This document shows positions 12,060-28,815 of a DNA stretch of 64,000 bases, piece after piece (within the stretch, counting starts at the first letter, position 1; the number at the start of each line of letters is the position of its first letter). Source of the DNA: Rhizobium sp. RU36D (GTDB lineage: Bacteria > Pseudomonadota > Alphaproteobacteria > Rhizobiales > Rhizobiaceae); NCBI RefSeq assembly GCF_900176345.1, contig NZ_FWXU01000011.1, forward strand, positions 1 through 64,000. Direction: 5' to 3'. The notes below the pieces were generated by a model, which saw nothing but the letters and a program-made list of their open reading frames with translations, was not told the DNA's origin and did not search any database. The translations under genes and the position numbers were made by a program.

Positions 12060-12944
12060 TCATCCCATGCGCTCGGAGGCGTAGGAGCCCGGGCTTGCCG
12101 GGAAGACCACGGTGCGGTTGCCGTTGATGAAAGTGCGGTGATGGATATGGGCGTGGATGGCCCGTGCCAGTACCTGGCTTTCCACGTCACGGCCAATCGA
12201 GACATAGTCGTCCGCGGACTGCGCATGGGTGATGCGGGCAACGTCCTGCTCGATAATCGGACCTTCGTCGAGATCGGCGGTCACGTAATGGGCGGTCGCA
12301 CCGATCAGCTTCACACCACGCTCGAAGGCCTGTTTGTAAGGATTCGCCCCCTTGAAGGACGGCAGGAAGGAGTGGTGGATGTTGATGATCTTGCCGGACA
12401 TCTTCTTACACATGTCGTCCGAAAGCACCTGCATGTAACGGGCCAGCACGATGAGCTCGGTGTCGGTCTGTGCAACCAAATCCATGATGCGGGCTTCGAC
12501 CTGCGGCTTGTTCTCCTTGGTCACCTTGATGTGGTGAAATGGAATGTCGTGATTCACGACGACCTTCTGGTAGTCGAAATGGTTGGAGACGACGCCGACG
12601 ATATCGATCGGCAAGGCGCCGATTTTCCAGCGATAGAGCAGGTCGTTGAGGCAGTGGCCGAAGCGCGACACCATCAGGAGGACCTTCATGCGCTTGGCGC
12701 CGTCATGCAGGTTCCAGTTCATGCCAAACTTCTCGGCAACGGGAATGAAGCCCTTTTCAAGCTTGGCCTCGGTGACACCTTCCTCCGAAATGAAGGAAAT
12801 GCGCATGAAGAACTGTCCGGTGTACAGATCGTCGAACTGGGAGCTGTCGACGATGTTGCAACCCTGTTCGGCGAGGTAACCAGAGATCGCAGCTACAATG
12901 CCGCGGGTCGACACGCACGTGACCGTCAGTACATAAGTAAGCAT
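12060..12944 (-). CDS. purU: Formyltetrahydrofolate deformylase PurU
   Basis: This 294-residue PurU has an N-terminal ACT domain (about 4-85) and a formyltransferase-fold domain with the catalytic IHHSFLPSF (about 189-197) and DLDEGPI (about 224-230) motifs. It hydrolyses 10-formyl-tetrahydrofolate to formate and free folate. It is the last gene of a long operon that also encodes MocD/E/F-like demethylation proteins. Its job here is likely to discharge one-carbon units after demethylation rather than to supply purine synthesis. The start has a weak AGAG site. Related PurU proteins accompany demethylation genes elsewhere, which supports but does not prove this reading. Confidence 0.93.
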   Translation of the reverse strand: MLTYVLTVTCVSTRGIVAAISGYLAEQGCNIVDSSQFDDLYTGQFFMRISFISEEGVTEAKLEKGFIPVAEKFGMNWNLHDGAKRMKVLLMVSRFGHCLNDLLYRWKIGALPIDIVGVVSNHFDYQKVVVNHDIPFHHIKVTKENKPQVEARIMDLVAQTDTELIVLARYMQVLSDDMCKKMSGKIINIHHSFLPSFKGANPYKQAFERGVKLIGATAHYVTADLDEGPIIEQDVARITHAQSADDYVSIGRDVESQVLARAIHAHIHHRTFINGNRTVVFPASPGSYASERMG

Positions 12945-13024
12945 TTCATCTCTTTCACAAAATGGCCCCCGTCAGGCCCGTTATGCCGGGCCAGACGCTG
13001 ATGTCGAAGGGGTGTGGTAGACGC

Positions 13025-13822
13025 TCAGGAATCGAGCGCCCTCAGGAAGCTTTCGAGCTCGGCGGGGTCCATTTGGACAACATGGCGGCTCTCGGGATAG
13101 GCGAGGCTTTCAACATCCTGGCGATATTCCGTAAACGCGGCAATCCGCTCCTGCTGGAGCCGGTCATATTCAGCGGCGAAATTGCGATAGACCTTGGAAT
13201 GGCGGGGCATATGGCCGCGGTTCTGGCCAAGAATATCCTCGGCGAACAAATATTGCGCATCGCAGCCGGTGCCAGCGCCCATTGACAGCATGAAGAGCGA
13301 AGTTCGTTCCGAAATCGCCTTGGCCACCTCGACGGGAACCACCTCGATTTCTGCACCGAAGGCGCCCGCCGCTTCATATTTGCGCACAGCATCCATGATC
13401 TGGAGCGCAGACTGCGCGGTTTTGCCGACCGCCTTTAAGCCACCCGTCCAGGTCGCCCGTGACGGGATCAGGCCGACATGGCCGATCACCGGGATCGCCT
13501 CGTCCGCCATCGCCTTCACCGTAGCATAGCTTGCCGAGCAATAGACGGCATCCGCCCCGGCCTTGTAGAGCCGGAAGGCCCAACGCACGAAATCGTCCGC
13601 CGTGCCAATCTCGAAGAAATTGTCGCCGGGCATCGAAAAGAGCGTCGGCGCCGCATCGCGATATTCAGGATTGAGCATCAGATCCGGTGGGATCGAGACA
13701 ATATCGATACCGGCTTGTTCAGCCGCCTCGGCCTCTTCGAGTGTCATGACGCGCAGCATGGTCAGCTGACGTTTTCCTTTCATCGCGCGGAGGTCGGCAA
13801 TGGTGGGTCTCTTTCTGGACAT
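13025..13822 (-). CDS. PanB-like (ketopantoate hydroxymethyltransferase family) protein
   Basis: This 265-residue TIM-barrel protein shows the PanB landmarks: an N-terminal MLRVMTLEEAEAAEQAGIDI segment, the central IPVIGHVGLIPSRATW, the EAAGAFGAEIEVVPVEVAKA stretch with the catalytic-region Glu, and a closing MGAGTGCDAQ. True PanB transfers a hydroxymethyl group between 5,10-methylene-THF and 2-oxoisovalerate. No panC or panD is nearby. The neighbours (PurU, MocDEF-like) point instead to handling formaldehyde or methylene-THF during substrate breakdown. It is divergent enough from housekeeping PanB (an IPPDLMLNP segment where VGDSLG is expected) that a different acceptor is likely. Confidence 0.8.
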   Translation of the reverse strand: MSRKRPTIADLRAMKGKRQLTMLRVMTLEEAEAAEQAGIDIVSIPPDLMLNPEYRDAAPTLFSMPGDNFFEIGTADDFVRWAFRLYKAGADAVYCSASYATVKAMADEAIPVIGHVGLIPSRATWTGGLKAVGKTAQSALQIMDAVRKYEAAGAFGAEIEVVPVEVAKAISERTSLFMLSMGAGTGCDAQYLFAEDILGQNRGHMPRHSKVYRNFAAEYDRLQQERIAAFTEYRQDVESLAYPESRHVVQMDPAELESFLRALDS

Positions 13823-13840
13823 GCGTTTCCCCTTCCAGGA

Positions 13841-15070
13841 TCAGAGTAGCGATTTGAGTTTGACAGACGGATCGGCAAGGAATGCCGGGTCTGGCCGGGC
13901 ACCGCGGCCAATCAGCATCTCGGCGAGCCTTATGTCTCTGGCCACCGCCTGACCCGGCCCGAAACCTTGCGCCGCCACCAGCCGACCATCGGCGGCGAGA
14001 TGAAAGCTCATAAGCACATCCTCGTTGGGCCGGCGCAATATTTCGGTCCCCCCTTCATCGATGAGGCCCGCCACCTGCAGCCCATGATCATACTGGTCCG
14101 ACCAGAACCAGGGCAACGGCATCTCGCCGATCGCTTCGCCGGAGAGCAGGGCCGCAGCCATGGCCGCCTGGTCGCGTGCATTGCGCCAGGATTCGAGCCT
14201 GACCCGCCGACCGCCATAGATCGAAAGCGGAAAGGCGCAACAATCGCCGATCGCCAGGATGGCTGGATCGGAGGTTTGAAGCCGCGCATCGACGGTGATG
14301 CCATTGTCGACCATCAGACCTGCCTCGCGCGCCAGCGCCACCTCAGGCACAGCGCCAATGCCGATCACGATTGTGGTAGCCGCAATCGTTCCGCCATCCG
14401 AAAGGATGAGTGCAATCGTATCGCCGCTTCGATCGATGGTGCTCACGCTCGTCCCAAGGCGAAAGGCGACGCCGTTCCGTTCGTGCAGTTCCTGGACCTT
14501 TCCCGCAATCGATGCCGAGACACCGCGCGCGAGAATTCGTGCCTGCGGCTCGATGACGCTCACAGCCGTTCCGTGCTTGCGCGCGGCAGCCGCCACTTCG
14601 AGCCCGATGAAGCCGGCCCCGAGAATGGCGATCGGGCCACCGGCCAACAGAAGCGGCCGCAACGCCTGCGCTTCGCGGAGGTTTCTGAGATAGTGAATGC
14701 CGACAATGCCCTCGGCGATCGGCAAGCGCCGCGACGCGGCGCCGGTGGCCAGCACCAGCCGGCCATAGTCCAGTCGTTGGCCGTCCGACAGTTCGACCGT
14801 CCGCGCCGCTCGGTCGATCCGCAGCGCATGGACGCCGCGATGATGAATGATCGCGTCCGGAATGTCTCCACCGGCAAACAGCGGAACCACTCGCGCTATC
14901 TCATCGGGCTCGAGATGGGCCTTCGACAGTGGCGGCCGTTCATAGGGCGCGCAATCCTCCGCCCCGACGAGATGGATCGGCAAGGAATTTCCGCGCCGCG
15001 CGAGGTCTGCCGCGAGTGTAGCACCCGCCTCACCGGCGCCGATGATGACGATGGGTCCGTCGGTTTTCAT
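13841..15070 (-). CDS. mocF: FAD-dependent ferredoxin reductase (MocF-like)
   Basis: This 409-residue reductase has an N-terminal FAD dinucleotide fold (IVIIGAGEAGATLAADL), an internal NAD(P)H fold (IAILGAGFIGLEVAAAAR), the ILAIGDCCAFP FAD-flavin contact and a C-terminal reductase domain. Putidaredoxin-reductase-like enzymes of this type pass electrons from NADH to a ferredoxin. The MocE-like Rieske ferredoxin is encoded immediately upstream with a 10-bp gap. The start at 15070 gives the canonical FAD-binding N-terminus; the longer open frame overlaps mocE. I infer its role as the electron source for the MocD-like oxygenase. Confidence 0.87.
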   Translation of the reverse strand: MKTDGPIVIIGAGEAGATLAADLARRGNSLPIHLVGAEDCAPYERPPLSKAHLEPDEIARVVPLFAGGDIPDAIIHHRGVHALRIDRAARTVELSDGQRLDYGRLVLATGAASRRLPIAEGIVGIHYLRNLREAQALRPLLLAGGPIAILGAGFIGLEVAAAARKHGTAVSVIEPQARILARGVSASIAGKVQELHERNGVAFRLGTSVSTIDRSGDTIALILSDGGTIAATTIVIGIGAVPEVALAREAGLMVDNGITVDARLQTSDPAILAIGDCCAFPLSIYGGRRVRLESWRNARDQAAMAAALLSGEAIGEMPLPWFWSDQYDHGLQVAGLIDEGGTEILRRPNEDVLMSFHLAADGRLVAAQGFGPGQAVARDIRLAEMLIGRGARPDPAFLADPSVKLKSLL

Positions 15071-15080
15071 GACAGGACCG

Positions 15081-15395
15081 TCAGCCGATCCGGAAGAGGA
15101 TGTCGCCATCCTCCACCTTGGCCTCATAGGTCTTGAGATCGACGCAGATCGGCGCCTTCAGCCCCTTGCCGTTGCGATAGTCGAAGCGCCCATTGTGCTT
15201 CGGGCATTCGATGACATGACCCATCACCAGCCCGTCGGCGAGATGGACCCGCTCATGGGTGCAGAGCCCGTCTGTCACATAGACAGTGTCGTCGGGGGCG
15301 CGGATGATCGCAAAGGTCTGGCCAGCATGGTCAAACCGCATCACATCCTCGGCGTCGATATCGTCCAGCGCGCAGGCCCTAATCCAGTCGCTCAT
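15081..15395 (-). CDS. mocE: Rieske [2Fe-2S] ferredoxin (MocE-like)
   Basis: This 104-residue single-domain Rieske protein has C45-T-H47 and C64-P-K-H67 as cluster ligands and the G-R-F-D-Y-x-x-G-x-G-L-K-A-P end typical of bacterial Rieske ferredoxins. Two in-frame ATGs are close together. The one at 15395 has GGAG at good spacing, whereas for the ATG at 15401 the site directly abuts the codon. It probably carries electrons from the MocF-like reductase to the MocD-like membrane di-iron enzyme. The trio in this order (D-E-F) matches the rhizopine-demethylating genes known from Rhizobium. Confidence 0.88.
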   Translation of the reverse strand: MSDWIRACALDDIDAEDVMRFDHAGQTFAIIRAPDDTVYVTDGLCTHERVHLADGLVMGHVIECPKHNGRFDYRNGKGLKAPICVDLKTYEAKVEDGDILFRIG

Positions 15396-15475
15396 TGTCA
15401 TTCTCCGGTTCTTGGACATGAGTTGGTTTTCGCCCTTGCGGGGCGGTCACACCTTCCCTCAGTGTCAGTGTCAGT

Positions 15476-16555
15476 TCAGTGGACGAGGTTCGGTTGCAGA
15501 TCCTCGCGATAGGGCCGTGCCGTTGGCGGCAGCTCCCGTTTCACGAAATAGTCCTCGTAGCGCAACTGGCGCAGCCAGGCCGGGATCACCTCGCGATATG
15601 CATGGATGATCGACGGGTTCGGCACAGGCAGGTCATGCTTGATCAGACGATGCAGTTCCGGCAGCGCGTGGTAGGGCACCATCGGGAACATGTGATGTTC
15701 GACATGGTAGTTCATGTTCCAATAGATGAAGCGGCTGATCGGATTCATGTAGACGGTGCGGCTGTTCAGCCGGTGGTCGAGCACGTTTTCGGCAAGGCCG
15801 CCATGCTGCAGAAGCCCGGTCATGATCATGTGCCAGCAGCCATACATGCGTGGCAGACCAATCAGCATCAGCGGCAGCCAGGATTGCAGATAAAGTGCGG
15901 TGACGATGGTGGCGATATAGATCAGCACATGCACGCGCGCTGCCCGGACGCCCTTCGGAATTTCAGTGGCCGGAATGTAGTCACGTTCGTCGGCGGAGTA
16001 GCGACCGACCGCATTGCGAATGAGCCCGATCAGCGAATGATGGACGTCGAGAATGCCGAACACATTCAGCATCACCTTCAGGAGATCAGGCGGCCGCATC
16101 ACGGCGATTTCCGCGTCACGGCCGACGATGATCGTATCGGTATGGTGCCGCGCATGGCTCCAGCGCCAGTTCACCGGATTGCGCATCAGCATGAAGGAGG
16201 CGATCTGGTAGACGACGTCGTTCATCCAACTGGTGCGAAAGGCGGTTCCATGTCCGCATTCATGCCAGCGCGCATCGCTTGCCGACCCGTAAAGCACGCC
16301 ATAGACTAGGAAGAACGGAACGCACCACCAGCTTCCCCAGAAATAGACGCCGAACGCGCCTGAAACGACCATCAATCCGAGCCAGATCACCGTGTCCCGG
16401 ATCGCAGCGGCATCGGAGCGCTGCATCAGTGCCTTCATCGTCTTGCGGTCGACATCCGAATGATACCATTCTGCCGAGGCCAGGCCGAGCGCGACGGCGC
16501 GCGCAGCACCTTCGCCGGTCAGCGAATAATCCCGCTTATCTACCCTATCCAACAT
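15476..16555 (-). CDS. mocD: Membrane di-iron oxygenase, fatty-acid-desaturase fold (MocD-like)
   Basis: This 359-residue membrane protein has the three histidine boxes of desaturases/hydroxylases, HECGH (about 98-102), HARHH (about 134-138) and HVEHH (about 284-288), plus an extra HGG near 251, on a four-segment membrane scaffold. MocD in Rhizobium takes part in removing the methyl group of 3-O-methyl-scyllo-inosamine. Here the gene sits in a sugar/cyclitol-type operon with ferredoxin and reductase, so O-demethylation releasing formaldehyde is the best prediction, not lipid desaturation. The ATG at 16555 has GGAGG eight bases upstream; an ATG five codons earlier overlaps that site. Confidence 0.87.
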   Translation of the reverse strand: MLDRVDKRDYSLTGEGAARAVALGLASAEWYHSDVDRKTMKALMQRSDAAAIRDTVIWLGLMVVSGAFGVYFWGSWWCVPFFLVYGVLYGSASDARWHECGHGTAFRTSWMNDVVYQIASFMLMRNPVNWRWSHARHHTDTIIVGRDAEIAVMRPPDLLKVMLNVFGILDVHHSLIGLIRNAVGRYSADERDYIPATEIPKGVRAARVHVLIYIATIVTALYLQSWLPLMLIGLPRMYGCWHMIMTGLLQHGGLAENVLDHRLNSRTVYMNPISRFIYWNMNYHVEHHMFPMVPYHALPELHRLIKHDLPVPNPSIIHAYREVIPAWLRQLRYEDYFVKRELPPTARPYREDLQPNLVH

Positions 16556-16581
16556 GTCGTTGACCTCCATGCCCCTGCCGT

Positions 16582-17778
16582 TCAGCCGGCGGGTTCTTGC
16601 TTCTTTCTCGTGATGTTCGGAAACTGGCCGGATGGTTTCGGAAAACTATCCGCCGGCTGTGTTGCGATCGCGGCAATCTTGCCGAGCGATGCGGCAAGGG
16701 CAGGCGCACCGGCCAGCACCCGGAATGTCACGTCGTAGCGGCGCTCCTCGCCATGATGGAGCCAGATAAGTTCGCCTGTCTCGCGCGCCCGGCCACGGCC
16801 CATCACATGGTCTGTCGAAGGTTCGATACCGAGGGCATAGAGTCCCGATTGCAGGGCCTGCCATTCGAAAAGGCAGGGGAACTGGTCCTTGCGGAATGAT
16901 ACTTCGAGGCCAAGCCCCGCACGGTCGTTGACGAGTGCCACCGGCACCTGTCCGGCCGCATCAGCCACGACGTCATGTTCCCATACCTGTTCGTGAAACC
17001 GCTCCTGCGGCGCCGGCATCCGGTCATAGCCGACATTCTGCGCACGATAATTTTCGCCCTCATGGGCAGCCCACAGAACATCGCGGATCGGCGCGGCATA
17101 ACGCGATCCTTCCGCCAGCACCGGATGGCCGACATTGACGTGATACATATACATATGCGGTGTCGGGCTGAAGCCACGATTGGCAACCCGGTCGGTGATC
17201 CGAATCTCGTCGGTCCCCACCTTCGCCTCGATGCGGCGGGTGAGTTCGAGATGTTCACCGAACACGGCGGCCTGCCGCACGATCCCCTCGCACCAGAGCC
17301 AGCAATCATCGCCGTCCCAGCGTTCGCCATAGCCCGATAGGCGGGCGGGAATGGTGCCGACGCGGCCATGGATCGAATGTTTGACCGTCTGGCGCGGCCG
17401 GTAATTATAGTGGTCCGCCGGTTCCTCGGCCATGAAGAGCGTATGATCGAGGCCGCAGGTGACAAGCAGTCCGGAAAAGGACCGCATCCAGCCCAGGCCA
17501 CCCTCTCCTTCATAATCATGCAGGCCGGGATGGCGAAATCCGGTCGCGGAATGCCAGCCGATCGCCATGCCGTTATGTTCGCAATCGCCGATGTCCATCG
17601 CACGATCGATGAGGACGGTAAAGCGAAGCCCGGTACCGGTGCGGAATTCGAGCAGGCGCACGCCACGTTCGACGCCGTCGCCCAGCGTCATCAGGCGCAC
17701 GCCGGCGAACTGCGACAGGCTGCCCGCATAGGCGGAAAGCTCCCGTCTGGTCCTGCGCTCGCCATAAAGTGTCACCAT
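16582..17778 (-). CDS. DUF4432 family aldose-1-epimerase-like protein
   Basis: This 398-residue beta-rich protein of the DUF4432 / galactose-mutarotase superfamily contains FTVLIDRAMDIGDCEHNG, GLLVTCGLDHT, the SIHGRVGTIPA loop and the central HMYMYHVNVGHPVLAEG segment. Proteins of this group bind sugars or cyclitol-like ligands and are usually encoded with sugar catabolic genes; catalytic roles are mostly unproven. It lies between the TIM-barrel isomerase and the MocD-like gene in the same operon. It may epimerise the anomeric centre or handle the demethylated product. The family assignment is firm, the reaction is not. Confidence 0.82.
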   Translation of the reverse strand: MVTLYGERRTRRELSAYAGSLSQFAGVRLMTLGDGVERGVRLLEFRTGTGLRFTVLIDRAMDIGDCEHNGMAIGWHSATGFRHPGLHDYEGEGGLGWMRSFSGLLVTCGLDHTLFMAEEPADHYNYRPRQTVKHSIHGRVGTIPARLSGYGERWDGDDCWLWCEGIVRQAAVFGEHLELTRRIEAKVGTDEIRITDRVANRGFSPTPHMYMYHVNVGHPVLAEGSRYAAPIRDVLWAAHEGENYRAQNVGYDRMPAPQERFHEQVWEHDVVADAAGQVPVALVNDRAGLGLEVSFRKDQFPCLFEWQALQSGLYALGIEPSTDHVMGRGRARETGELIWLHHGEERRYDVTFRVLAGAPALAASLGKIAAIATQPADSFPKPSGQFPNITRKKQEPAG

Positions 17779-17860
17779 CGCCGCTGCTCCGTCGCTGAAA
17801 CGTCATCTGTCCGACATCGGGCGATTATTCCGCCCGATGTCATTCCTTGTGATCCGGGTT

Positions 17861-18775
17861 TCAGAGGCCCTGGGCCCGGAGCTTGCCGTCCAGGAATGTC
17901 TTGGCGCGCGGTACATCCGACTCTTCCAGATGCTCGATGATGATCGGAATGTTCGGATGCTTCTGCGCCAGCCGCTTCAGGTAGAGATCGTAGTTAAGCG
18001 AGCCGAGGCCCGGGGCAGGCAGTTCGATCTCGCCGACGCCACGGAACGTATGGCTTTCCATCGCATCTGCATCGCCGATATCGGCATGCTTTTCGGATTT
18101 GTCATCGCCCGAGCGCTTGACGTCCTTGGCATGAGCGATCCTGATCTTGTCGGTCAGCGTGTCAAAAACCTGATTGAGGATCTGGTCCATCCGGTCGATA
18201 TTGTGGGTCTCGAAATAGTTGGTCGGATCCATCAGCAGGCCGAGGCCCTGGTGATCGACCTGGGCGAACATCTTCACCGTTTCCTCGACGGAACCGACGA
18301 CATTGTTCACATAGGTTTCGAGCAGGAAGGTCGCGCCGTGATCATAGGCATGTTGCGACAGGTCGGCGATGACCTTGCGGCATTCCTCGAAACCTTCTTC
18401 CGTCTTGTTCTTCGGATGATGAACCCAGTCCGACTCGGTGTTGTAGGTGCCGGTTTCGGAGATCACATAAGGCGTGCCGAGATGTTGTGCATGCCGGATG
18501 ATTTCCTTGAGATAGCCAACACGACGGGCACGTTCGGCCGGATCGGGATGGATGATGTTGGTATAGCCGGAGATACAGCAGATCGGCAGATTGTGATCGC
18601 GGAACGTCTCGCGGATGCGGATGCACTTTTCCTTGGTGATCTGGCCTGCACTCAGATCCATATCCTTGAAATGCAGGTCGAGCTGCACGGTGTTGAAGTT
18701 GAGCGCACGGATCTTCCTTGCAGTCTCTTCGAGGCTGTAGGGGAAATATCCGGTGAAAATGCCGGTCTGCATCAT
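17861..18775 (-). CDS. Sugar phosphate isomerase/epimerase family protein (AP endonuclease 2-like TIM barrel)
   Basis: This 304-residue xylose-isomerase-like TIM barrel has metal-ligand positions visible as Glu in FLLETYVNN, Asp in GLLMDPTNYF, His in IRIAHAKDV and Glu in IIIEHLEE. The family includes IolE, IolI, MocC, tagatose/psicose epimerases and related enzymes. MocC of the rhizopine locus belongs to it, which fits the MocDEF-like neighbours. It probably isomerises or dehydrates the keto product made by the Gfo/Idh enzyme encoded just upstream (26-bp gap). The substrate is not predictable from sequence alone. Confidence 0.87.
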   Translation of the reverse strand: MMQTGIFTGYFPYSLEETARKIRALNFNTVQLDLHFKDMDLSAGQITKEKCIRIRETFRDHNLPICCISGYTNIIHPDPAERARRVGYLKEIIRHAQHLGTPYVISETGTYNTESDWVHHPKNKTEEGFEECRKVIADLSQHAYDHGATFLLETYVNNVVGSVEETVKMFAQVDHQGLGLLMDPTNYFETHNIDRMDQILNQVFDTLTDKIRIAHAKDVKRSGDDKSEKHADIGDADAMESHTFRGVGEIELPAPGLGSLNYDLYLKRLAQKHPNIPIIIEHLEESDVPRAKTFLDGKLRAQGL

Positions 18776-18801
18776 GGTTGAGTCCTCCCTTTGGATCGAA
18801 A

Positions 18802-19890: not shown

Positions 19891-19903
19891 CTTCTCCTCC
19901 CCT

Positions 19904-20968
19904 TCACAGATTTTGCAGTTTCGGCAGGGCCCTCCCGGCCCTGTCGAAATAGAACATGCGCGCCGGCTCGCACGCGAGCCCCACGTAACTGTTGAGCCGG
20001 ATCTGCGGCTGACCGCGCATCAGGGCCCGAAGCCGGATAGGACCGCTTTCAAGCGTGACGACCGTATGGCCGCCGAGCGGCTCGACTTCGAAGACCCACG
20101 CTTGGTTCGCCGCTCCACTATCGGCTCCGACCTTGAGGTCTTCCGGCCGGATGCCGATGCCGACCGCACCATCCGGAATCCGCGCCGGATCGAGTTGCAA
20201 GGCGCCGGCGGCAGCCGATGGTGTCGGTCCAGCCTCGATCGACAGAATGTTGATCTGCGGTGAGCCCAGAAGCCCTGCCACATAGCGATTGGCTGGATTG
20301 TCGTAGATTGCTTGCGGCGTATCTATCTGGCGGATGGCGCCATGTTCGAGCATCGCCATCCGGTCCGCCACCGACATCACCTCTTCCTGGTCATGCGTCA
20401 CATAGACCAGCGTATGACCTAGCTCGCGCTGGATGCGCTTGAGTTCGACGCGGGTTTCCTCGCGCAGCCGCGCATCGAGCGCTGAGATTGGATCATCCAT
20501 TAGATAGGCGACCGGATCGCGCACAAGAGCCCGGGCGATTGCCACGCGCTGTCGCTCGCCGCCGGAGAGATGGGCCGGCATCTTGTGCAAGAGATGCGAG
20601 ATATGGAGCTTTTCGGCGACGCTTGCGACGCGTCTGGCGATCGCATCGGGCGCCACCTTCCGCTCGACCAGCGGAAAGCGCACATTGTCGCCGGCCGTCA
20701 TATGCGGAAAGAGCGCCAGGTTCTGGAACACCATCGCGACGTTGCGCGCCGGCGCCGGTACATGGGTTACAGGCTTGCCGTCGATGAGGATTTCGCCCCT
20801 GTCCGGCATTTCGAGGCCGAGGATCAGCTTCAGAATCGTCGATTTGCCTGAGAGCGGTGGCCCGAACAGACAGAAGAATTCATTGTCGCCGATCTCGAAG
20901 CTGACATCGTCGACGGCGATCTTGTCGCCATAGCGTTTGGTGACATTTTCGAAGCGGATGGTCGCCAT
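19904..20968 (-). CDS. ABC transporter ATPase 1 (MalK/UgpC type), degenerate Walker B
   Basis: This 354-residue ATPase has a C-terminal regulatory/TOBE region (IGIRPEDL). The Walker A is GPPLSGKST and the signature is a normal LSGGERQR. In the Walker B the catalytic glutamate is replaced by aspartate (YLMDDPISALD, where LLDEP is usual), and the GAT codon at that position is clear. It is encoded next to a second, different ATPase; together with two permeases and a large binding protein this resembles the GlpSTPQV layout of Rhizobium. The start at 20968 (MATIRFENV) gives the standard N-terminus; the longer frame overlaps ATPase 2. Confidence 0.9.
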   Translation of the reverse strand: MATIRFENVTKRYGDKIAVDDVSFEIGDNEFFCLFGPPLSGKSTILKLILGLEMPDRGEILIDGKPVTHVPAPARNVAMVFQNLALFPHMTAGDNVRFPLVERKVAPDAIARRVASVAEKLHISHLLHKMPAHLSGGERQRVAIARALVRDPVAYLMDDPISALDARLREETRVELKRIQRELGHTLVYVTHDQEEVMSVADRMAMLEHGAIRQIDTPQAIYDNPANRYVAGLLGSPQINILSIEAGPTPSAAAGALQLDPARIPDGAVGIGIRPEDLKVGADSGAANQAWVFEVEPLGGHTVVTLESGPIRLRALMRGQPQIRLNSYVGLACEPARMFYFDRAGRALPKLQNL

Positions 20969-20972
20969 GGTA

Positions 20973-22067
20973 TCAAGCCTCCCCGATCGCCATGCCGGTG
21001 TCGGCATCGAACAGTCTCACGCCTTCGCTGGCGAGCGCCACGGGCGCCATCTTGCCGGCCTCTATCCCTTCGCCATTGTCAATCACTGCCTTGGCGAGCG
21101 TGCGTTCGGCGCCGAAATGCAGCGTCGTGCGCGCGCCGATCCGCTCGACGAACAACACCGGTAGCGAGATACCGCCACCCTGTCGGTCAATCGACACCTG
21201 TTCGGGCCTGAAACCGAACCACACATCGGCGCGCTTGCGGCGCCGTAGAGCAGCGGCAAGCCCGCGTGGCAGCACCGGAGACAGGCCGAGCTGGCCGAGA
21301 TCGATACGGATTTCAGCGCTCTCTTCGGTAACCGTACCACGGATGAGGTTCATGCCCGGCGCCCCGATGAAATTGGCAACAAATAGGTTGGCCGGATGGT
21401 TGTAGACCTCGAGCGGTGTACCCACCTGCTGCAGCACCCCGTGATCCATCACCGCGATCCGGTCGGCCATCGTCATGGCTTCGAGCTGGTCATGGGTGAC
21501 ATAGACCATGGTCTGGCGGAACTGCCGCTGCAGATGCTTGAGTTCGGTGCGCATGACAGAGCGGAAGGCGGCGTCGACATTGGAGAGTGGCTCGTCGAGC
21601 AGGAAGATTGCCGGTTCGACGATTGCCGAACGGCCGATCGCCAACCGCTGCAGGATATTGACCGAGAGTTTCGCCGAGGGCTTGTCAAGCAGTTCGGTGA
21701 GCTGCAGGAACTCCGCCATCTGCCTGACGCGGCGGTTGATTTCAGCTGCCGGCAACCGGCGCATCTTCAGGCCGAAGGCGAGGTTGTCGCGCACCGTCAT
21801 ATGGGTGAAGATCGCATAGTTCTGAAAGACGAAACCGACCCCGCGCCTACCCATCGGCACGTCGATCATATCGCGACCGTCGAAGAGAATGCGGCCACCG
21901 GTCGGCCGTTCCATGCCGGCGATCATGTTCATCGTCGTCGACTTGCCGCAGCCGGAGGGTCCGAGCAGCGCCACGAACTCGCCGTCGGCGATCTTCAGGT
22001 CCATGGTCTTCAGGGCCTGGAAGGCACCGAAACTCTTTTCGAGATTTTCGAGATGGATCGACGTCAT
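20973..22067 (-). CDS. ABC transporter ATPase 2 (MalK/UgpC type), degenerate signature motif
   Basis: This 364-residue ATPase has a consensus Walker A (GPSGCGKST) and Walker B (FLLDEPLSNVD), but its signature motif is LSVNILQR instead of LSGGQQQR. Combined with ATPase 1, the heterodimer would have one intact site (this Walker A/B with the partner's LSGGE) and one degenerate site (partner's Asp Walker B with this LSVNI). GGAGG lies ten bases upstream of the ATG at 22067. It is followed by ATPase 1 with a 4-bp gap and preceded directly by a permease gene. Confidence 0.9.
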   Translation of the reverse strand: MTSIHLENLEKSFGAFQALKTMDLKIADGEFVALLGPSGCGKSTTMNMIAGMERPTGGRILFDGRDMIDVPMGRRGVGFVFQNYAIFTHMTVRDNLAFGLKMRRLPAAEINRRVRQMAEFLQLTELLDKPSAKLSVNILQRLAIGRSAIVEPAIFLLDEPLSNVDAAFRSVMRTELKHLQRQFRQTMVYVTHDQLEAMTMADRIAVMDHGVLQQVGTPLEVYNHPANLFVANFIGAPGMNLIRGTVTEESAEIRIDLGQLGLSPVLPRGLAAALRRRKRADVWFGFRPEQVSIDRQGGGISLPVLFVERIGARTTLHFGAERTLAKAVIDNGEGIEAGKMAPVALASEGVRLFDADTGMAIGEA

Positions 22068-22068
22068 G

Positions 22069-23010
22069 TCAGGCCTCCGCACGCGCCTTGTTCATCCGGG
22101 ATATCGCCAGGGAAACAAGGATGGAGAGAACGATGAGGATGACGAGCGCGATCGCCGCGACATAGCCCCAGATAAGATCCTGCTGGGTGACCTTGTAGAT
22201 ATAGACGGATATCGTCTCGGTCGCGACACCCGGGCCGCCGCCTGTCATGATGAAGAGCGTGTCAAAGATCTTGAAATTCTCGATGACGCGGATGGCAAGC
22301 GCGATCAGGATAATCGTCTTCATGCGTGGCAGCATGATGTAGCGGAAGCGTTGCGGCCAGGAAGCGCCGAGCAGGCTTGCCGCTTTCAGCTGGTCCTCCG
22401 GCACGCCGACGAGGCCGGCTAAGAGGATGAGGAACATCAAGGGCGTCCATTGCCAGATATCGGCGATCATCACCGCGATCAGCGCCGTTCCGGGGCTTGA
22501 TAGCCAGGCAAGGGCCACTGGCTGGCCGGTGAGCGCCGAAATCAGCATATTCACCGGCCCACCCGACTGGAAGAGCATGAAGAACATGTAGCCGGCCACG
22601 GCAGGCACCACCATCATCGGCATCAGCAGTATCGAGTAGAACACTCGCTTGCCCGGAAAGTCCTGCACGAAGAGGATCGCGAGCCCGAGCCCGAGCAGGA
22701 ACTCGACCGGCACGCAGACCAGCATGATCAGCGCAGTGCGACCGAGCGCGCCGAAGAAGCGGTTGTCCGTCATCAGATCGGTGTAGTTGGCGAAGGTATT
22801 CCAGCTTTCCCAGGCCATCCACCAGCCGGTGCCATCGAGCGGCGACCAGTCGGTGAGCGAGATATAAAGCTGCATCAGAAGCGGGAAGACCGAGATAAAC
22901 AGCACCAGGATCTGGGCCGGAAGCGTCAACCACAGTCCAAGGCGGCGGCCTTCGTCGGCATCCGTCGCCGCGTTGCTGGATGGAGATACGGTCTGATCGA
23001 GAGCTGGCAT
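22069..23010 (-). CDS. Sugar-type ABC transporter permease 1 (MalF/UgpA type)
   Basis: This 313-residue membrane protein has six predicted transmembrane segments and the EAA-loop (LKAASLLGASWPQRFRYIML, then P) that docks on the ATPase. The start at 23010 is preceded by GGGAGGA. A longer open frame into the upstream permease is not homologous. It partners permease 2, encoded 38 bp upstream. The substrate follows from the binding protein and operon context: a polyol, cyclitol or sugar, possibly methoxylated. Confidence 0.9.
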   Translation of the reverse strand: MPALDQTVSPSSNAATDADEGRRLGLWLTLPAQILVLFISVFPLLMQLYISLTDWSPLDGTGWWMAWESWNTFANYTDLMTDNRFFGALGRTALIMLVCVPVEFLLGLGLAILFVQDFPGKRVFYSILLMPMMVVPAVAGYMFFMLFQSGGPVNMLISALTGQPVALAWLSSPGTALIAVMIADIWQWTPLMFLILLAGLVGVPEDQLKAASLLGASWPQRFRYIMLPRMKTIILIALAIRVIENFKIFDTLFIMTGGGPGVATETISVYIYKVTQQDLIWGYVAAIALVILIVLSILVSLAISRMNKARAEA

Positions 23011-23048
23011 GACGCTCTGTCCTCCCTGTTCAAGACGATGGTCGAGGC

Positions 23049-23915
23049 TCATTGCTTCAGCGCCCCGAATGTCAGCCCCCGCACCAGATGGCGCTGGATG
23101 GCGATACCCATAAGGACGGGCGGCACGGCGGCGATGAGACCGAGCGCGGCCTTGGCGCCATAGAGCTGTCCGGTCATCGAGGAGGAGAGGGAGGCCATAT
23201 AGACCGGGATCGTTACCCATTCCCGGGTGGTCAGAAGCAGGCCAATCAGATAGTCCGACCAGTTGAGAATGAAGACGAAGAGGGCTGAGCTTGCGAGCGG
23301 CGCGCGCATCATTGGCAGCGTGATCTTGGTGAAGACGCGCCAGCGCGAACAGCCTTCCACCCGCGCCGCGTCCTCGATTTCGCGCGGCATGTCGTCAAAG
23401 AAGGTCTTCATCAGCCAGAAGGCGAATGGCAGCGTGACGATGCCATAGATCAGCGCGAGGCCCCACCAAGTATCGACCATGTTGAAGAAGGCCCACATGA
23501 TCATGACCGGGATCATGACGGCCATCGGCGGAAACAGCCGGAGCTGGATCAGCGCCAGCGGCAGATTCCCGCCAGATCCGAAGCGCGACAGGCCATAGGC
23601 GGCCGATGTGCCGAACACCATGGCGATAAGCGTGCCGAACACAGCCGAAAGCAGCGAGGCGAGAATGGGCTTGGCCGCGGTCTTGTCGAGCGCGACGATC
23701 AGTTCGCTCGAGGATTGCCCAAAAATGAAGCGGAAATTGTCGAGCGTCGGCTGTCTGGGCCACCAGGTCAACTGATCGCCCGTCGCCGTCCATTCGGCGA
23801 TCGGCTTGAAGGCCATCGAGGCCATCCAGAGAATGGGGACGAGCGTGATAGCCAACGCCGCGCAAATGGCGAGATAGCGAAGACACTCAAGGGCAAACGA
23901 ACGATGCATGGCCAT
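23049..23915 (-). CDS. Sugar-type ABC transporter permease 2 (MalG/UgpE type)
   Basis: This 288-residue inner-membrane permease has six predicted segments and a MalG-type EAA loop ([20 protein letters not shown], then TLP). It ends with the family's usual hydrophobic helix and a short GLTFGALK tail. Two close ATGs exist (23915, 23909); I took the longer. It follows the binding-protein gene across a 72-bp gap that holds a strong hairpin. Confidence 0.9.
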
Positions 23916-23936
23916 CAACTGTGATTGTTGGAGATC

Positions 23937-23958
23937 GGAGGGGCGAAAACGCCCCTCC
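23937..23958 (-). promoter_or_regulatory. Intercistronic hairpin after the binding-protein gene
   Basis: GGAGGGGCG-AAAA-CGCCCCTCC (9-bp perfect arms, tetraloop) lies between the binding-protein stop and the first permease start. There is no T-run after it in the direction of transcription. It probably protects the upstream mRNA, which would raise binding protein over membrane components. Confidence 0.72.
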
Positions 23959-23987
23959 ATGCCCGGGGAGAAAAACTGTGCAGTCGA

Positions 23988-25592
23988 TCAATCGACCACG
24001 GTCGGCCAGGCAGCCATGTTCGCCTTGACGGCACTGACAAGCTTGTCTTCGCCGATGCGCCGGGCGATGCGCTTCCATTCCTTTTCGGTGTCTGCCATCG
24101 CCTGTTCCGGTGTCTTGGCCTTGGTCAGCGATGCGACGAGGTTCTCGTCGAGCGCATTGTGGAAGGCAGTCGCACCCGGATAGTTGATGGTTGGCACGGC
24201 GCGCGCCACGCTCTCGCGGACGATATCCATGTGGTAGTCGTGGTAGGTCTGGCGCACGAGCGGATCGGAAAAGTTCGACAGCTGGAACGGATCGAAGTAA
24301 CCGCCCGGATTGGCCGTCATCCACGAATAGATCCGGCTCGAACCGAGCCATTGCAGCAGAAGATAACAGGCTTCCGGATGCTTGGACTGCGACGAGATCG
24401 AAGCCGACAGGTTGAGCCAGAGCACGGTGCGGCGGATCAGCTTGCCATCGACATCGCGGCCCGGCGGCAGCATGGAACCCACCTTGCCGGTGACCTTGGA
24501 GCCGGTATTGCCGGCATTGTCGAGGAATTTCGGCAGGTTGGAGAAGGCGCAGGTCATCGCCGCACCGCCATTGGCGAAATTGCCATATTGTTCCGGCCAG
24601 CCCCAGGAGATCGCATCCGGCGAGTGATGCGACAGCGATTCCACATATTCCAGCGTGGCGGCATAGCCGGCCTCGGAATTGATCAGCGGATTTCCGCTTT
24701 CATCGAACAGGAACTGGTTCGGATTGCCCATCGAAACATAGCGCTGATACCAGTTGGTATAGCCCCAGCCCTGGTTGCGCAGGTCGGTCGACCCGAACAG
24801 ACCCTTGTCCGGACGGTGGAAGAAGGCCGCAATCTCGGAATGTTCCTTCCAGGTCCGCGGTGGCTTCAGTTCATAGCCATGCTTGTCGGCGAAGGCCTTC
24901 TTCTCGGCCTCGTCGTTGAAGAGATCGGTGCGGTAGTTCCAGGTTTGGAAGTCACCATCCAGCGACACACCATAGGTCGAACCATTATACTGGTTGAGCA
25001 GCGAAACGCCTTGCTTGCCGTTGACGTAACCGCGCTCCGGATCGTCCCATTCCGGCTTGTGTGCCGCAACGAAATCGTCGAGATTGAGGATGCCGCCGGT
25101 TTCAGCGAGATCGCCCAGACGGTTCCATTCAACGGCATAGATGTCGAACGCCCCACCCTTGGTGGAGATATCCTGCATCGTCTTGGTGAATTCCTGTCCG
25201 TTCGGAACGCCGACGATCTCAAGCTTGATTCCGGTTTCCTTTTCCCACAGATCCTTGATCGAGGGCGCGCCCTTCGGGAAAGGCTGCGTCAATTGCCCGA
25301 TCGAACCGTCAGACAGGCCGAGAACGATCCGTTCCGGCGATTTGCCGGCTGCCTTGAGAGCCTTGGCTGCTTCCACGGCCCGGCCTTCGGGCGTCTCCGC
25401 GCCATACTGGTACCGTTCGGCTCCGTCAAATCCGGTCGGTCCGCCAATCATGCCTGGCGCCAGTGCGTCCGCAGCAAAGGCCCGACCCGGCCGGATGAAT
25501 TGCGGTGCAATACCAATGGCGGCTGTCAGCACAGCCGCCTTGCCGCCACTGGCCAACAGGCCACGACGGGTCATTTCAAGTCTTGAGACCAT
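23988..25592 (-). CDS. Extracellular solute-binding protein, large (Tat-exported, GlpV-like)
   Basis: This 534-residue binding protein is larger than the usual 420-residue sugar-binding protein. A twin-arginine signal (MTRRGLLASGGKAAVL) ends near GRAFAA. The size, the two-ATPase transporter and the general layout match the GlpV group of the Rhizobium glycerol-3-phosphate system, but glycerol phosphate is unlikely given the catabolic genes downstream. GGGAGG precedes the ATG at 25592; the open frame continues further upstream without homology. It is the first gene of the operon, facing the LacI-type regulator. Tat export implies folding before export. Confidence 0.88.
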   Translation of the reverse strand: MVSRLEMTRRGLLASGGKAAVLTAAIGIAPQFIRPGRAFAADALAPGMIGGPTGFDGAERYQYGAETPEGRAVEAAKALKAAGKSPERIVLGLSDGSIGQLTQPFPKGAPSIKDLWEKETGIKLEIVGVPNGQEFTKTMQDISTKGGAFDIYAVEWNRLGDLAETGGILNLDDFVAAHKPEWDDPERGYVNGKQGVSLLNQYNGSTYGVSLDGDFQTWNYRTDLFNDEAEKKAFADKHGYELKPPRTWKEHSEIAAFFHRPDKGLFGSTDLRNQGWGYTNWYQRYVSMGNPNQFLFDESGNPLINSEAGYAATLEYVESLSHHSPDAISWGWPEQYGNFANGGAAMTCAFSNLPKFLDNAGNTGSKVTGKVGSMLPPGRDVDGKLIRRTVLWLNLSASISSQSKHPEACYLLLQWLGSSRIYSWMTANPGGYFDPFQLSNFSDPLVRQTYHDYHMDIVRESVARAVPTINYPGATAFHNALDENLVASLTKAKTPEQAMADTEKEWKRIARRIGEDKLVSAVKANMAAWPTVVD

Positions 25593-25664
25593 CTTATCCT
25601 CCCACCGGGCAGACCTCCTTCCGCCCAATGATGAGGAAAATGACGACCATTATGATGACTGTCA

Positions 25665-25684
25665 ACATCATTTTGCATCAAATT
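25665..25684. promoter_or_regulatory. Operator copy 1 (20-bp repeat) near binding-protein promoter
   Basis: ACATCATTTTGCATCAAATT matches a second copy at 25858-25877 (ACATCATTTCACATCAAAAT) at 17 of 20 positions, in the same orientation. An overlapping inverted repeat ATCAAAT (25677-25683) / ATTTGAT (25701-25707), with ATGCAT almost at its centre, follows. It lies about 75 bp upstream of the transporter operon and is a good candidate binding site for the adjacent LacI-type protein. Confidence 0.6.
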
Positions 25685-25857
25685 CATCATGCATCGCATC
25701 ATTTGATTGCATTCAGGCGTAACCTTGCAAATCAATTCGTTGATAAATAAGCGCTTTACCCGTTCGATTGAAGGAATGAGCCTGACAGATCCCCGTTCAA
25801 ATCGGGGATATCAACGCATCAACTGATTTTAAGATTGCTTTTGCCGTCAGTTGAACT

Positions 25858-25877
25858 ACATCATTTCACATCAAAAT
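25858..25877. promoter_or_regulatory. Operator copy 2 (20-bp repeat) just upstream of the LacI-type gene
   Basis: This second copy of the 20-bp repeat ends 15 bp before the GTG start of the regulator. A separate perfect inverted repeat, TCAACTGA (25819-25826) / TCAGTTGA (25847-25854), lies just upstream. The arrangement suggests autoregulation and possible looping with copy 1, about 190 bp away. Pairing with the regulator is inferred from position. Confidence 0.55.
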
Positions 25878-25892
25878 ATAAAGGCAGAGGCC

Positions 25893-26900
25893 GTGAGATC
25901 GACATTGATTGACATTGCAAGAGAATCCGGTGTCTCGACCGCCACGGTCGACCGGGTTCTCAATAATCGTCCGGGCGTCAGGGAGCGAACGCGGCTCATC
26001 GTCATGGAGGTTGCGACACGGCTTGGCTATTTCACCGCGCCAACCGGTCAGGATAGTCGTCTCCGCATCGATTTCGTTCTGCCCGAAGGCACCAACGCCT
26101 TCATCTTGAACCTCAAATCCGAACTTGAACGCCAGATCTCCGCAATGACGGATCTTGATGCGCGTATTCATACGGTCGAAGGGTTCAACCCGGATGTGCT
26201 CGCCGCCAAACTCGCCGAACTGGAAGACAACTCGCAAGGTGTAGGCCTGCTCGCATTCGATCATCCGGCAGTGCGCGAAGCGATGCGGCGTCTGGCCGAT
26301 CGCGGCGTCAAGATCGTGACCATGGTATCTGATATCCAGCATACCCCGCGCATCGGCTATGTCGGGGTCGACAATCGAGCTGCCGGTCGCCTGGCCGGCT
26401 ATATGATCGGTCGCTTTCTGCCGAAGGACCAGCCGCAAAAGATCGCCCTTTTTGCCGGCTCGCTTGCCTATCGCGGCCATGAAGAGCGAGAAATGGGATT
26501 CCGCCACATCCTGTCGGAAGAATTTCCATATCTCGAAATTGTCGACCTGCGCGAAATTCGAGATGACCGCATCCGCGCCTACGCGGAATCTACCTCGCTT
26601 CTGAAGCGCCACCTCGATCTTGCAGGCATTTACAATATCGGCGGTGGCAATTCCGGCATTGGCAAAGCGCTCGATGAATGCGGTCGAGGTCGCGAGGTCG
26701 TTTTTGTAGGCCATGAGGTGACAGAAGACACGAGGCTGATGCTTATCAAGGGTACGATGGATGCGCTGATAGACCAGAATCCGCGTGTCGAAGCCCGCGA
26801 AACAATTTCAATGCTCAAAGCCGCCATCCGCGGTGAAGCGATCAGCTATATCGGCCCGCGTATCCAGGTGGTGCTGAAAGAGAACATTCCGGATCAATAG
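25893..26900 (+). CDS. LacI-family transcriptional regulator
   Basis: This 335-residue LacI/GalR regulator has an N-terminal DNA-binding headpiece (STLIDIARESGVSTATVDRV, then LNNRPGVRERTR) and a periplasmic-binding-protein-like ligand domain. I chose the GTG at 25893, which gives the normal distance to the headpiece. A TTG at 25851 gives 14 more residues but would place a repeat element in the coding sequence. It is divergent from the 13-gene moc-like operon and probably its repressor, relieved by the imported sugar or cyclitol. The ligand domain is of the type that binds free sugars or inositols. Confidence 0.88.
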   Translation: MRSTLIDIARESGVSTATVDRVLNNRPGVRERTRLIVMEVATRLGYFTAPTGQDSRLRIDFVLPEGTNAFILNLKSELERQISAMTDLDARIHTVEGFNPDVLAAKLAELEDNSQGVGLLAFDHPAVREAMRRLADRGVKIVTMVSDIQHTPRIGYVGVDNRAAGRLAGYMIGRFLPKDQPQKIALFAGSLAYRGHEEREMGFRHILSEEFPYLEIVDLREIRDDRIRAYAESTSLLKRHLDLAGIYNIGGGNSGIGKALDECGRGREVVFVGHEVTEDTRLMLIKGTMDALIDQNPRVEARETISMLKAAIRGEAISYIGPRIQVVLKENIPDQ

Positions 26901-28262: not shown

Positions 28263-28789
28263 AGGGGCACATCCTCCATCTTGAGTTCGATCCGGTGCTC
28301 CCAGCCGTGCCGGAAGACACGGGCCGTGGCGGCGACCGTCAACAGGGCGACGAGCAGGGCACCGATTGCCAGCGCGTAGTATCCGACGCTGTTCGGGATA
28401 CCAAGCACGGGGCTGCTTTCGGCGCTGGCGATCTCTGCCACCAGCACCGACTGATAGGCGAGAACCAGAAATGACAGGACGCTGATCGCGCCTGCCAGGG
28501 CGAAGGCGCCAAGCCGGGCGGTTCCGGTCAGCTTGTCATAGAGCCACTCGACGGCCATGTGGCCGCCCATATGCGCGGCCAACACGATCCCTGACAGGAT
28601 GAACCAGGGAAAGATCAGCATTGGCAGTTCCTGTGCAAAAGAAAAACCGCCGCTGCTCAGCGCGTATCGGGCCAAAACGTTCGTCGTGGTGACGACAGTC
28701 AGCGCGATGCCGCTGGCGATAACCATGAAGCGTGCGAACTTCACGGTCAAAAGCGCCAAAATGTCGAGGGACCTCAAAAGAGCAGACAT
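28259..28789 (-). CDS. TRAP transporter small permease DctQ
   Basis: This 176-residue protein has four membrane segments and the conserved W-F-I-L-S-G-I-V-L-A-A-H-M-G-G-H motif of DctQ subunits around the second to third segment. It sits between DctP and DctM and is translationally coupled to DctM. A small 5-bp stem (28793-28805) lies over its ribosome-binding region. Confidence 0.9.
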   Translation of the reverse strand: MSALLRSLDILALLTVKFARFMVIASGIALTVVTTTNVLARYALSSGGFSFAQELPMLIFPWFILSGIVLAAHMGGHMAVEWLYDKLTGTARLGAFALAGAISVLSFLVLAYQSVLVAEIASAESSPVLGIPNSVGYYALAIGALLVALLTVAATARVFRHGWEHRIELKMEDVPL

Positions 28790-28815
28790 GGAAAGCCTCC
28801 GGCTTGGCAGTAGAA

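Follow-up and report, generated by a model that had tools for sequence, protein, structure and literature searches.

A conserved Rhizobium operon that probably couples oxidative O-demethylation of a carbohydrate to folate-linked one-carbon disposal

The window analysed here is a 64,000-nucleotide stretch of DNA from Rhizobium sp. RU36D, to which all positions refer unless a locus is named. It contains 13 minus-strand genes, running from 25592 down to 12060, and a divergent plus-strand gene for a LacI-family regulator at 25851–26900. We named the window's proteins by Pfam and NCBIfam profile searches, and these gave every gene the identity and the order that an earlier note, made from the letters alone, had assigned to it. 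The features are, from the regulator onwards:

25851–26900, plus strand: divergent LacI-family regulator (PF00356 and Peripla_BP_4)
25660–25673, minus strand: promoter-like element containing TTGACA, in the stretch that separates lacI from the first operon gene
23988–25592, minus strand: ABC solute-binding protein of CUT1 type (SBP_bac_1); probable start ATG 25592, open frame to 25628
23049–23960, minus strand: ABC permease (BPD_transp_1)
22069–23052, minus strand: second ABC permease (BPD_transp_1); likelier start ATG 23052 or 23010, open frame to 23220
20973–22067, minus strand: ABC ATPase 1 (ABC_tran); probable start ATG 22067
19904–20968, minus strand: ABC ATPase 2 (ABC_tran and TOBE_2); probable start ATG 20968
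18802–19890, minus strand: Gfo/Idh/MocA-family dehydrogenase (GFO_IDH_MocA), here Gfo
17861–18775, minus strand: TIM-barrel enzyme of the sugar epimerase/isomerase superfamily (AP_endonuc_2)
16582–17778, minus strand: DUF4432 protein, aldose 1-epimerase-like (PF14486, 333 bits)
15476–16570, minus strand: MocD-like membrane di-iron oxygenase (FA_desaturase family)
15081–15419, minus strand: MocE-family Rieske [2Fe-2S] ferredoxin (TIGR02377, 163 bits against a cut-off of 136)
13841–15070, minus strand: MocF-like ferredoxin reductase (Pyr_redox_2 and Reductase_C); probable start ATG 15070, open frame to 15127
13025–13822, minus strand: PanB-like protein, proposed formaldehyde-to-folate enzyme (Pantoate_transf, 135 bits)
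12060–12944, minus strand: PurU, formyltetrahydrofolate deformylase (TIGR00655, 339 bits against 286)

Because the gaps between open frames measure only −47 to +82 bases, we regard the 13 genes as one compact operon. Of the 17 intergenic sequences read between lacI and the operon, 15 contain the element TGATGTTGAC; the exceptions are L145, which has a variant of it, and L151, where the stretch is cut at the element. Three loci yielded an empty stretch and were left out of this comparison. In the host genome, the conserved element TGATGTTGACA occurs exactly only here (25660–25673, minus strand) and twice with one mismatch, against no occurrence of a reversed-pattern control, and it possibly overlaps the LacI operator. 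A consensus promoter scan was uninformative (7 found against 5.9 expected); the same scan returned 21 terminator-like sites against 11.0 expected.

The oxygenase genes resemble those of rhizopine-type moc loci. The three histidine boxes of MocD (H103 E104 H107; H139 H142 H143; H289 H292 H293) are invariant in an alignment of 32 sequences. Compared with the locus on plasmid pPR12A203 of R. indicum (L169), identities are 72% for MocD, 61% for MocE, 46% for MocF, 64% for the PanB-like protein and 85% for PurU. These values, with the MocE profile score above its cut-off, bear out the naming of MocD, MocE and MocF in the earlier note. L169 carries an IolE-type gene (TIGR04379, 395 bits), a Gfo gene, a divergent Gfo/binding-protein pair (Peripla_BP_4) and a GntR-aminotransferase regulator, then MocD, MocE, MocF, PanB-like and PurU; further on are a DegT-family aminotransferase and an MFS gene resembling mosB and mosC as described in a section of PMC6668481. 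In PMC10107442 and PMC6668481, rhizopine catabolism is put down to moc genes, mocDEF among them, and the first of these papers gives the layout in rhizopine users as four units, mocDEF, mocR, mocBA and mocC. Fourteen plasmid records hold a rhizopine-type MocR (80% or more), and we opened six of them (R. indicum L169, R. leguminosarum A1, R. lentis, Phyllobacterium zundukense, and S. meliloti RCAM1115 and BL225C), which by their gene layout appear to be rhizopine loci. All six have the order MocD-MocE-MocF-PanB-like-PurU, with the PanB-like protein split over two overlapping frames in L282 and MocD, as a short match, outside the record's gene table in L277. The earlier note had taken the PanB-like protein and PurU to set the operon apart from rhizopine loci; since all six inspected loci carry both, that distinction falls.

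Two modules make up the operon: a carbohydrate cassette (LacI/ABC/Gfo/TIM/DUF4432) and an oxygenase cassette that is portable. Away from rhizopine loci, three papers already record genes like mocDEF: beside FixV-type regulators (PMC3538637), adjoining a second xylose isomerase gene in Pseudomonas syringae (PMC5132102), and in R. mesoamericanum, with levels that increase in Mimosa root exudate (PMC5789663). At L283, L176 and L035, in R. etli and R. leguminosarum, nadA and nadB follow a mocDEF-PanB-like cassette and cob genes precede it.

A genome scan with MocD yielded 80 named loci, of which 54 carry an orthologue of the TIM-barrel enzyme at 70% identity or more (class A). All 80 were fetched through MocD itself, so their gene counts do not tell how often the sugar cassette occurs alone. 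In class A, Gfo occurs in 54 loci, DUF4432 in 49, MocE in 47 and the reductase in 10. The PanB-like gene lies within 3.5 kilobases (kb) of MocD in 52 of the 54, the misses being L151 and L166 (contig end), and a CUT1 ATPase is present in 39 of the 51 loci with at least 9.5 kb upstream. Gfo and TIM genes near MocD in 54 of 80 loci, and PanB-like in 52 of 54, argue that the gene association is not chance. In many loci a ribose-type (CUT2) transporter, additional or substituted, lies between the TIM and DUF4432 genes; a CUT2 binding-protein cluster spans 23 loci, its families checked on single Mesorhizobium, Labrys and Aureimonas members. The earlier note had proposed searching for the gene order elsewhere and comparing it with moc loci; both were done, and besides the part shared with rhizopine-type loci the order recurs. 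The nearest copy, in Rhizobium alvei (L087), is 89–99% identical in every gene, with purU cut by the contig end, and Aquibium carbonis (L119) has the run from LacI to PanB-like, as does Mesorhizobium (for example L107) apart from the reductase, which is missing there.

A midpoint-rooted MocD tree of 68 rows places all 17 class-A rows in one clade of 20 (support 98/87); the other three rows are L042, L131 and L120, the last without a TIM gene in 21 kb. This clade falls within a group of 27, whose sister is a clade of 22 containing the rhizopine-type MocD (98/90), and the two together form a group of 49 (100/99). Gene content, conservation, modularity and the association of the PanB-like protein with several oxygenase families are observations, and they describe a widespread, transporter-equipped system of Mesorhizobium, Rhizobium and relatives, many of whose hosts live alongside plants in which methylated cyclitols and sugars are plentiful. 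Some variants stand apart: L149, L150 and L136 are class-A loci without DUF4432 in which one frame of a similar family precedes Gfo-TIM-MocD. In L150, this frame is aconitase X by Pfam and resembles a cis-3-hydroxy-L-proline dehydratase below the cut-off; L149 and L136 were assigned by similarity. In Rhizobium tubonense, a second LacI/MocE/reductase cassette (L118:14220-17350) follows soon after the class-A operon.

We consider it reasonably probable that the operon takes up an O-methylated carbohydrate, demethylates it oxidatively and passes the one-carbon unit to folate through the PanB-like protein. FA_desaturase-type di-iron oxygenases, working with a Rieske ferredoxin and a flavin adenine dinucleotide (FAD) reductase, hydroxylate C–H bonds; hydroxylation of a methyl ether yields formaldehyde, and FolD and PurU convert methylene-tetrahydrofolate (methylene-THF) to formate. 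Bahar et al. in 1998 reportedly set out a demethylation model for rhizopine. In the proposed pathway, the ABC transporter would import a small O-methylated carbohydrate of plant type, and MocD, fed with electrons from NAD(P)H through the FAD reductase and the MocE ferredoxin, would hydroxylate its O-methyl carbon. The resulting hemiacetal would break down to formaldehyde and the compound with its hydroxyl group free. The PanB-like protein would load formaldehyde, or the hydroxymethyl group directly, onto tetrahydrofolate (THF) to give methylene-THF; FolD, encoded elsewhere in the genome, would oxidise this to formyl-THF, and PurU would release formate. Gfo, the TIM-barrel enzyme and the DUF4432 protein would process the demethylated carbon skeleton. 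The demethylation chemistry draws on knowledge of the enzyme families and is well supported by the comparison of loci; what the PanB-like protein does and in which order the sugar steps run are inferred only.

The carbohydrate context claimed in the earlier note stands. Gfo has 28% identity to the MocA of the rhizopine-type locus and 29% to an IolG that adjoins another cassette, and scores 99 bits on the IolG profile, whose cut-off is 355. The DUF4432 protein resembles 3ty1, 'Hypothetical aldose 1-epimerase' (E 8e-27). For the binding protein, the closest solved relatives are weak (5iai, 'Sugar ABC transporter', E 4e-8), and its relatives on plasmids carry only generic annotations among the matches listed. 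The TIM-barrel enzyme is 78–99% identical to nine relatives from several genera, with a mean column identity of 92% over 10 sequences. It has no match to the IolE profile and no useful match to the IolE-like MocC. We rejected its assignment as IolE or MocC, because its fold matches only the broad 3-epimerase/IolE/YcjR superfamily, at 11–21% identity in the matches listed. The best PDB matches of its AlphaFold2 (AF2) model are 3-epimerases; at a pLDDT of 72.6, these predicted fold matches are too weak to name a reaction.

Relatives of the sugar cassette also occur away from the oxygenase. We opened seven loci (two from S. medicae) of 28 plasmid records with a TIM protein at 80–95% identity. In all seven, from Sinorhizobium, Pararhizobium and Rhizobium plasmids, a LacI/Gfo/TIM/DUF4432 block 62–92% identical to the window lacks MocDEF and carries a short-chain dehydrogenase/reductase (SDR) gene instead; a CUT1 transporter accompanies three. 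The SDR gene is followed by a lactonase in L271, L278 and L281, by a CoA-transferase and an enoyl-CoA hydratase in L272, L273 and L279, and directly by neither in L280. In P. qamdonense at least, a MocDEF-PanB-like cassette lies on another plasmid than the sugar cassette. These loci, and the many other partners with which MocDEF-PanB-like cassettes occur, would fit two independent functions under one promoter: a pathway for an unmethylated sugar or polyol (ABC-Gfo-TIM-DUF4432) and a general MocDEF demethylase for other substrates. We think this improbable. The TIM gene is rare, found in 7 of 299 genomes of an evenly drawn phylum sample at E 1e-20, its own included, and MocD lies within 5 kb of it in all seven. 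Since class-A MocD rows form one supported clade (17 of its 20 rows, 98/87), the pairing of the cassettes appears to be old and kept. The single dedicated pathway of the earlier note is weakened by the plasmid copies of the sugar part, although the genomes sampled across the phylum all keep MocD near the TIM gene.

The substrate can be narrowed to some extent. The aldose-epimerase likeness of DUF4432 and the SDR and lactonase genes point to an aldose skeleton, and the evidence leans towards an aldose rather than a cyclitol. An O-methyl sugar has, in our estimate, slightly better than an even chance of being the substrate, an O-methyl-inositol is a doubtful candidate, and a compound of neither kind is improbable. 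The earlier note had named pinitol and ononitol; inositol genes do adjoin other MocD/PanB-like cassettes, and none lies in this operon. An explanation built on such compounds would have MocDEF demethylate the O-methyl-inositol, Gfo and the TIM enzyme start inositol breakdown and the general iol pathway finish it. In its favour are iolG, iolC and iolD beside the cassette in Marivivens (L175), iolG in Peteryoungia (L172) and Gemmobacter (L289), iolE/iolD in R. leguminosarum (L170) and iolG-like genes in several genomes of the order, and the host carries one true IolD (922 bits), outside the operon. Legume nodules are described in part of PMC8730688 as rich in pinitol and ononitol, and the LacI-family FixV, homologues of which lie beside mocDEF, was proposed in an excerpt of PMC3538637 to sense an inositol derivative. 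However, the operon itself lacks any iol gene, the low identities of Gfo to MocA and IolG and the lack of a useful MocC match for the TIM enzyme speak against inositol chemistry, DUF4432 in 49 of 54 class-A loci and SDR with lactonase in three MocD-less loci suggest an aldose, and the LacI regulator shares no more than 33% identity with the FixV type. We judge this explanation unlikely and prefer the O-demethylation pathway with an aldose-type substrate. Elsewhere, L186, L189 and L289 hold operons of FA_hydroxylase, CUT2 transporter, MocE, TIM, PanB-like and iolG, which are good candidates for O-methyl-inositol catabolism.

The PanB-like protein exceeds the Pfam cut-off for Pantoate_transf over profile positions 93–258 of 259 only and falls below the NCBIfam panB cut-off (97 against 208). 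Its AF2 model (pLDDT 90.8) predicts that it keeps the PanB fold: the top 28 Foldseek rows are all PanB, and the model superposes on PanB with Z 21–24 (best 24.2) and a root-mean-square deviation of about 3, whereas other superfamily members reach 15.5 or less. For the residues, we aligned the family with the host's true PanB, using the roles that we take the E. coli enzyme to have: metal-binding Asp, Asp and Glu, a keto-acid Lys and a catalytic Glu. The keto-acid Lys is replaced by Tyr, the metal Glu (KLEGG) mostly by Ser or Ala, and the second metal Asp aligns with Gly. The first metal Asp is uncertain; at least 28 of 42 family members have an acidic residue nearby. E160, which aligns with the presumed catalytic Glu, is invariant in all 42, as are E158 and H115. 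Villasenor et al. (PMC3082293) report that RHE_PE00443 on R. etli p42e fails to complement a panB mutant and has five of 12 active-site residues, with no metal domain detected. On p42e, mocD, mocE and the reductase immediately precede the PanB-annotated gene (L283); its plasmid, length and annotation lead us to take RHE_PE00443 to be this PanB-like gene. A role as the host's pantothenate enzyme was rejected on the replaced residues, the failed complementation and a separate true panB at C37 (352 bits).

Across 297 genomes of the order, MocD occurs in 44, the PanB-like protein in 30 and both in 27 (Fisher p 1.5e-23, a generous value because related genomes are not independent). The two are neighbours within 5 kb at 34 of 58 MocD loci and 34 of 50 PanB-like loci. 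An oxygenase of one of three families lies near 44 of the 50 PanB-like loci, a tally made without a random-neighbour control. At nine of the 16 PanB-like loci away from MocD (L186, L188, L189, L191–L195, L199), an oxygenase of FA_hydroxylase/sterol-desaturase type lies no more than about 8 kb away; most of the nine also have MocE and a CUT2 transporter, and iolG is frequent. This family was checked by Pfam in L186, L188, L189 and L195 and assigned by similarity in the remaining loci; the L199 oxygenase is on the opposite strand and only 38% similar, and the PanB-like frame of L191 is overlapped by another frame. In L200, a Rieske oxygenase directly adjoins the PanB-like gene, and in L185 only MocE stands with it before the contig end. 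No oxygenase was seen at five PanB-like loci: L187 (contig edge), L190, L196, L197 and L198. Searching across the phylum brought in Rhodobacterales loci, among them L246–L248, which unite MocD, reductase, MocE and PanB-like, and L245 and L249, where no MocD is close by. MocD and FA_hydroxylase share no significant sequence similarity (E 0.44).

Some oxygenase cassettes without a PanB-like gene appear to carry another means of removing formaldehyde. Three loci of 111 records with an FA_hydroxylase-type oxygenase were opened: one has PanB-like and iolG, one formaldehyde dehydrogenase and one neither among the genes listed. In L290 and L211, oxygenase-MocE cassettes without PanB-like carry on the same strand a class III alcohol dehydrogenase/S-(hydroxymethyl)glutathione dehydrogenase (TIGR02818, 590 bits in L290; the L211 copy is 85% identical). 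The L290 operon of Rhizobium sp. CIAT894 (L290:8037-13720), which runs FA_hydroxylase-MocE-reductase-TIM-class III alcohol dehydrogenase, is an apparent demethylation cassette with glutathione-linked formaldehyde removal. Genes for the later folate steps adjoin as well: FolD follows PurU in M. huakuii (L036) and in Phyllobacterium (L276, found by tblastn and absent from the record's gene table) and lies beside PurU in L172, as expected of the folate-linked disposal of one-carbon units that the earlier note had suggested for an oxidative demethylation cassette. Weaker FolD matches follow in L169, L274 and L275. In addition to the PurU of the operon, the host genome has one FolD over the cut-off, encoded elsewhere. 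Three PurU genes over the family cut-off (C38:111434-112261, C44:12102-12932, C23:96894-97724) also make other demethylation routes in this genome likely.

Spontaneous condensation of formaldehyde with THF is too slow for growth according to part of PMC7073904, so an enzyme for this step makes sense. We suggest that the PanB-like protein makes methylene-THF because the PanB fold family handles methylene-THF, because three oxygenase families share the protein, because formaldehyde dehydrogenase replaces it in two cassettes and because PurU and FolD lie downstream. It is possible, at somewhat less than even chances, that it is a folate-linked formaldehyde-capture enzyme with a rebuilt metal/keto-acid site, serving at least three oxygenase families whose substrates would be methyl ethers of cyclitols, sugars and other compounds, rhizopine among them. 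A different reaction, in which the PanB-like protein would be a carbon–carbon lyase within the carbohydrate pathway itself, releasing methylene-THF or formaldehyde by retro-aldol cleavage of a branched or hydroxymethyl keto compound, and MocDEF would hydroxylate the skeleton rather than a methyl ether, is quite unlikely in our view. It would agree with the PanB-family fold (Z 24.2 to PanB, 15.5 or less for the next superfamily members), the invariant E160, a metal site made possible by the acidic residue near the first ligand, and the presence of PurU. However, the other presumed metal-ligand positions and the lysine are changed, three oxygenase families with differing carbohydrate genes fit a shared one-carbon product better than a shared skeleton, and formaldehyde dehydrogenase stands in two cassettes without PanB-like.

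Several observations weigh against folate-linked O-demethylation as the operon's function. PurU is present in 13 of the 47 class-A loci with at least 4 kb downstream (at least 45% identity required) and the reductase in only 10 of 54. The absence of MocDEF from all seven plasmid loci means that the cassette's substrate need not be methylated. With most of the presumed metal and keto-acid residues replaced, the chemistry of the PanB-like protein cannot simply be that of PanB, and PMC7073904 found that E. coli PanB itself plays no part in formaldehyde–THF condensation. Six of 50 PanB-like loci lack an oxygenase, one of them having MocE. In L111, L114 and L115, where PanB-like is present, a gene 61% like the class III dehydrogenase about 8.6 kb upstream of MocD does not fit a simple replacement of PanB-like. 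Finally, 30 MocD loci of at least 8 kb lack PanB-like, many of them having been fetched for that reason, and 28 of these showed no PurU, FolD or formaldehyde dehydrogenase, so local handling of formaldehyde is not universal. Taken together, the interpretation in the earlier note is partly supported.

In the open-licence PMC literature, we found no substrate tests for the operon, no pinitol or ononitol catabolism genes, no account of this gene combination or of any PanB-like role, and no mention of PanB or PurU in moc loci. If the proposal is true, the PanB-like protein would be the missing one-carbon step of the rhizopine pathway, present in moc loci and unnamed in the literature searched. Formaldehyde release is a little-studied side of oxidative O-demethylation, and an enzyme for its capture on folate would be a real find.

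Around the operon, a TRAP transporter (DctM, DctQ, DctP; 27003–29820, minus strand) lies directly behind lacI, and a ParA/RepA-like protein with a MerR helix-turn-helix is encoded at 9561–10751 (minus strand), about 1.3 kb beyond purU. The operon may lie on a plasmid, beside its replication region. A mocDEF-PanB-like cassette of R. leguminosarum (L035) is also within about 10 kb of repABC.

Among known systems, the closest is catabolism of rhizopine (3-O-methyl-scyllo-inosamine) by mocCABRDEF of S. meliloti L5-30 and R. leguminosarum, which has the same MocD-MocE-MocF order followed by PanB-like and PurU. As the earlier note recognised, regulator and transporter differ. The window has a LacI regulator, whereas the rhizopine MocR combines GntR and Aminotran_1_2 (L169; pairwise E 0.28), and its binding protein is SBP_bac_1 (CUT1), whereas MocB is Peripla_BP_4 (the pairwise match covers only 21 residues). 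The window lacks close MocA, MocB and MocC, has DUF4432 and an unrelated TIM enzyme, and its MocD belongs to the sister group of the clade with rhizopine-type MocD. The FixV/LacI mocDEF clusters of S. meliloti pSymB, R. etli p42e and R. leguminosarum, covered in part of PMC3538637, share the divergent LacI, MocDEF and PanB-like. They differ in having a different TIM protein and, in three records, no CUT1 transporter, Gfo or DUF4432 directly beside mocDEF; the 33% identity given above was to their type of regulator, from Peteryoungia (L172). PanB shares its fold and the aligned invariant Glu (E160) with the window's PanB-like protein, which differs in most metal-ligand and Lys positions and matches Pfam over its C-terminal two thirds only. 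Nicotine-degrading Arthrobacter has a purU-mabO-folD operon for oxidative demethylation during the breakdown of nicotine (PMC3891541), likewise coupled to FolD and PurU; that review has these two lead to formaldehyde, which we read as formate from the enzyme name. In that operon, however, an amine oxidase makes methylene-THF directly from an N-methyl substrate, and the passages seen of PMC3891541 mention no PanB-like protein. The FA_hydroxylase-MocE cassettes (L186–L195, L289, L290), with PanB-like or class III alcohol dehydrogenase, share with the window the MocE-type ferredoxin, mostly PanB-like, and carbohydrate transport genes, often with iolG, but their oxygenase is of another family.

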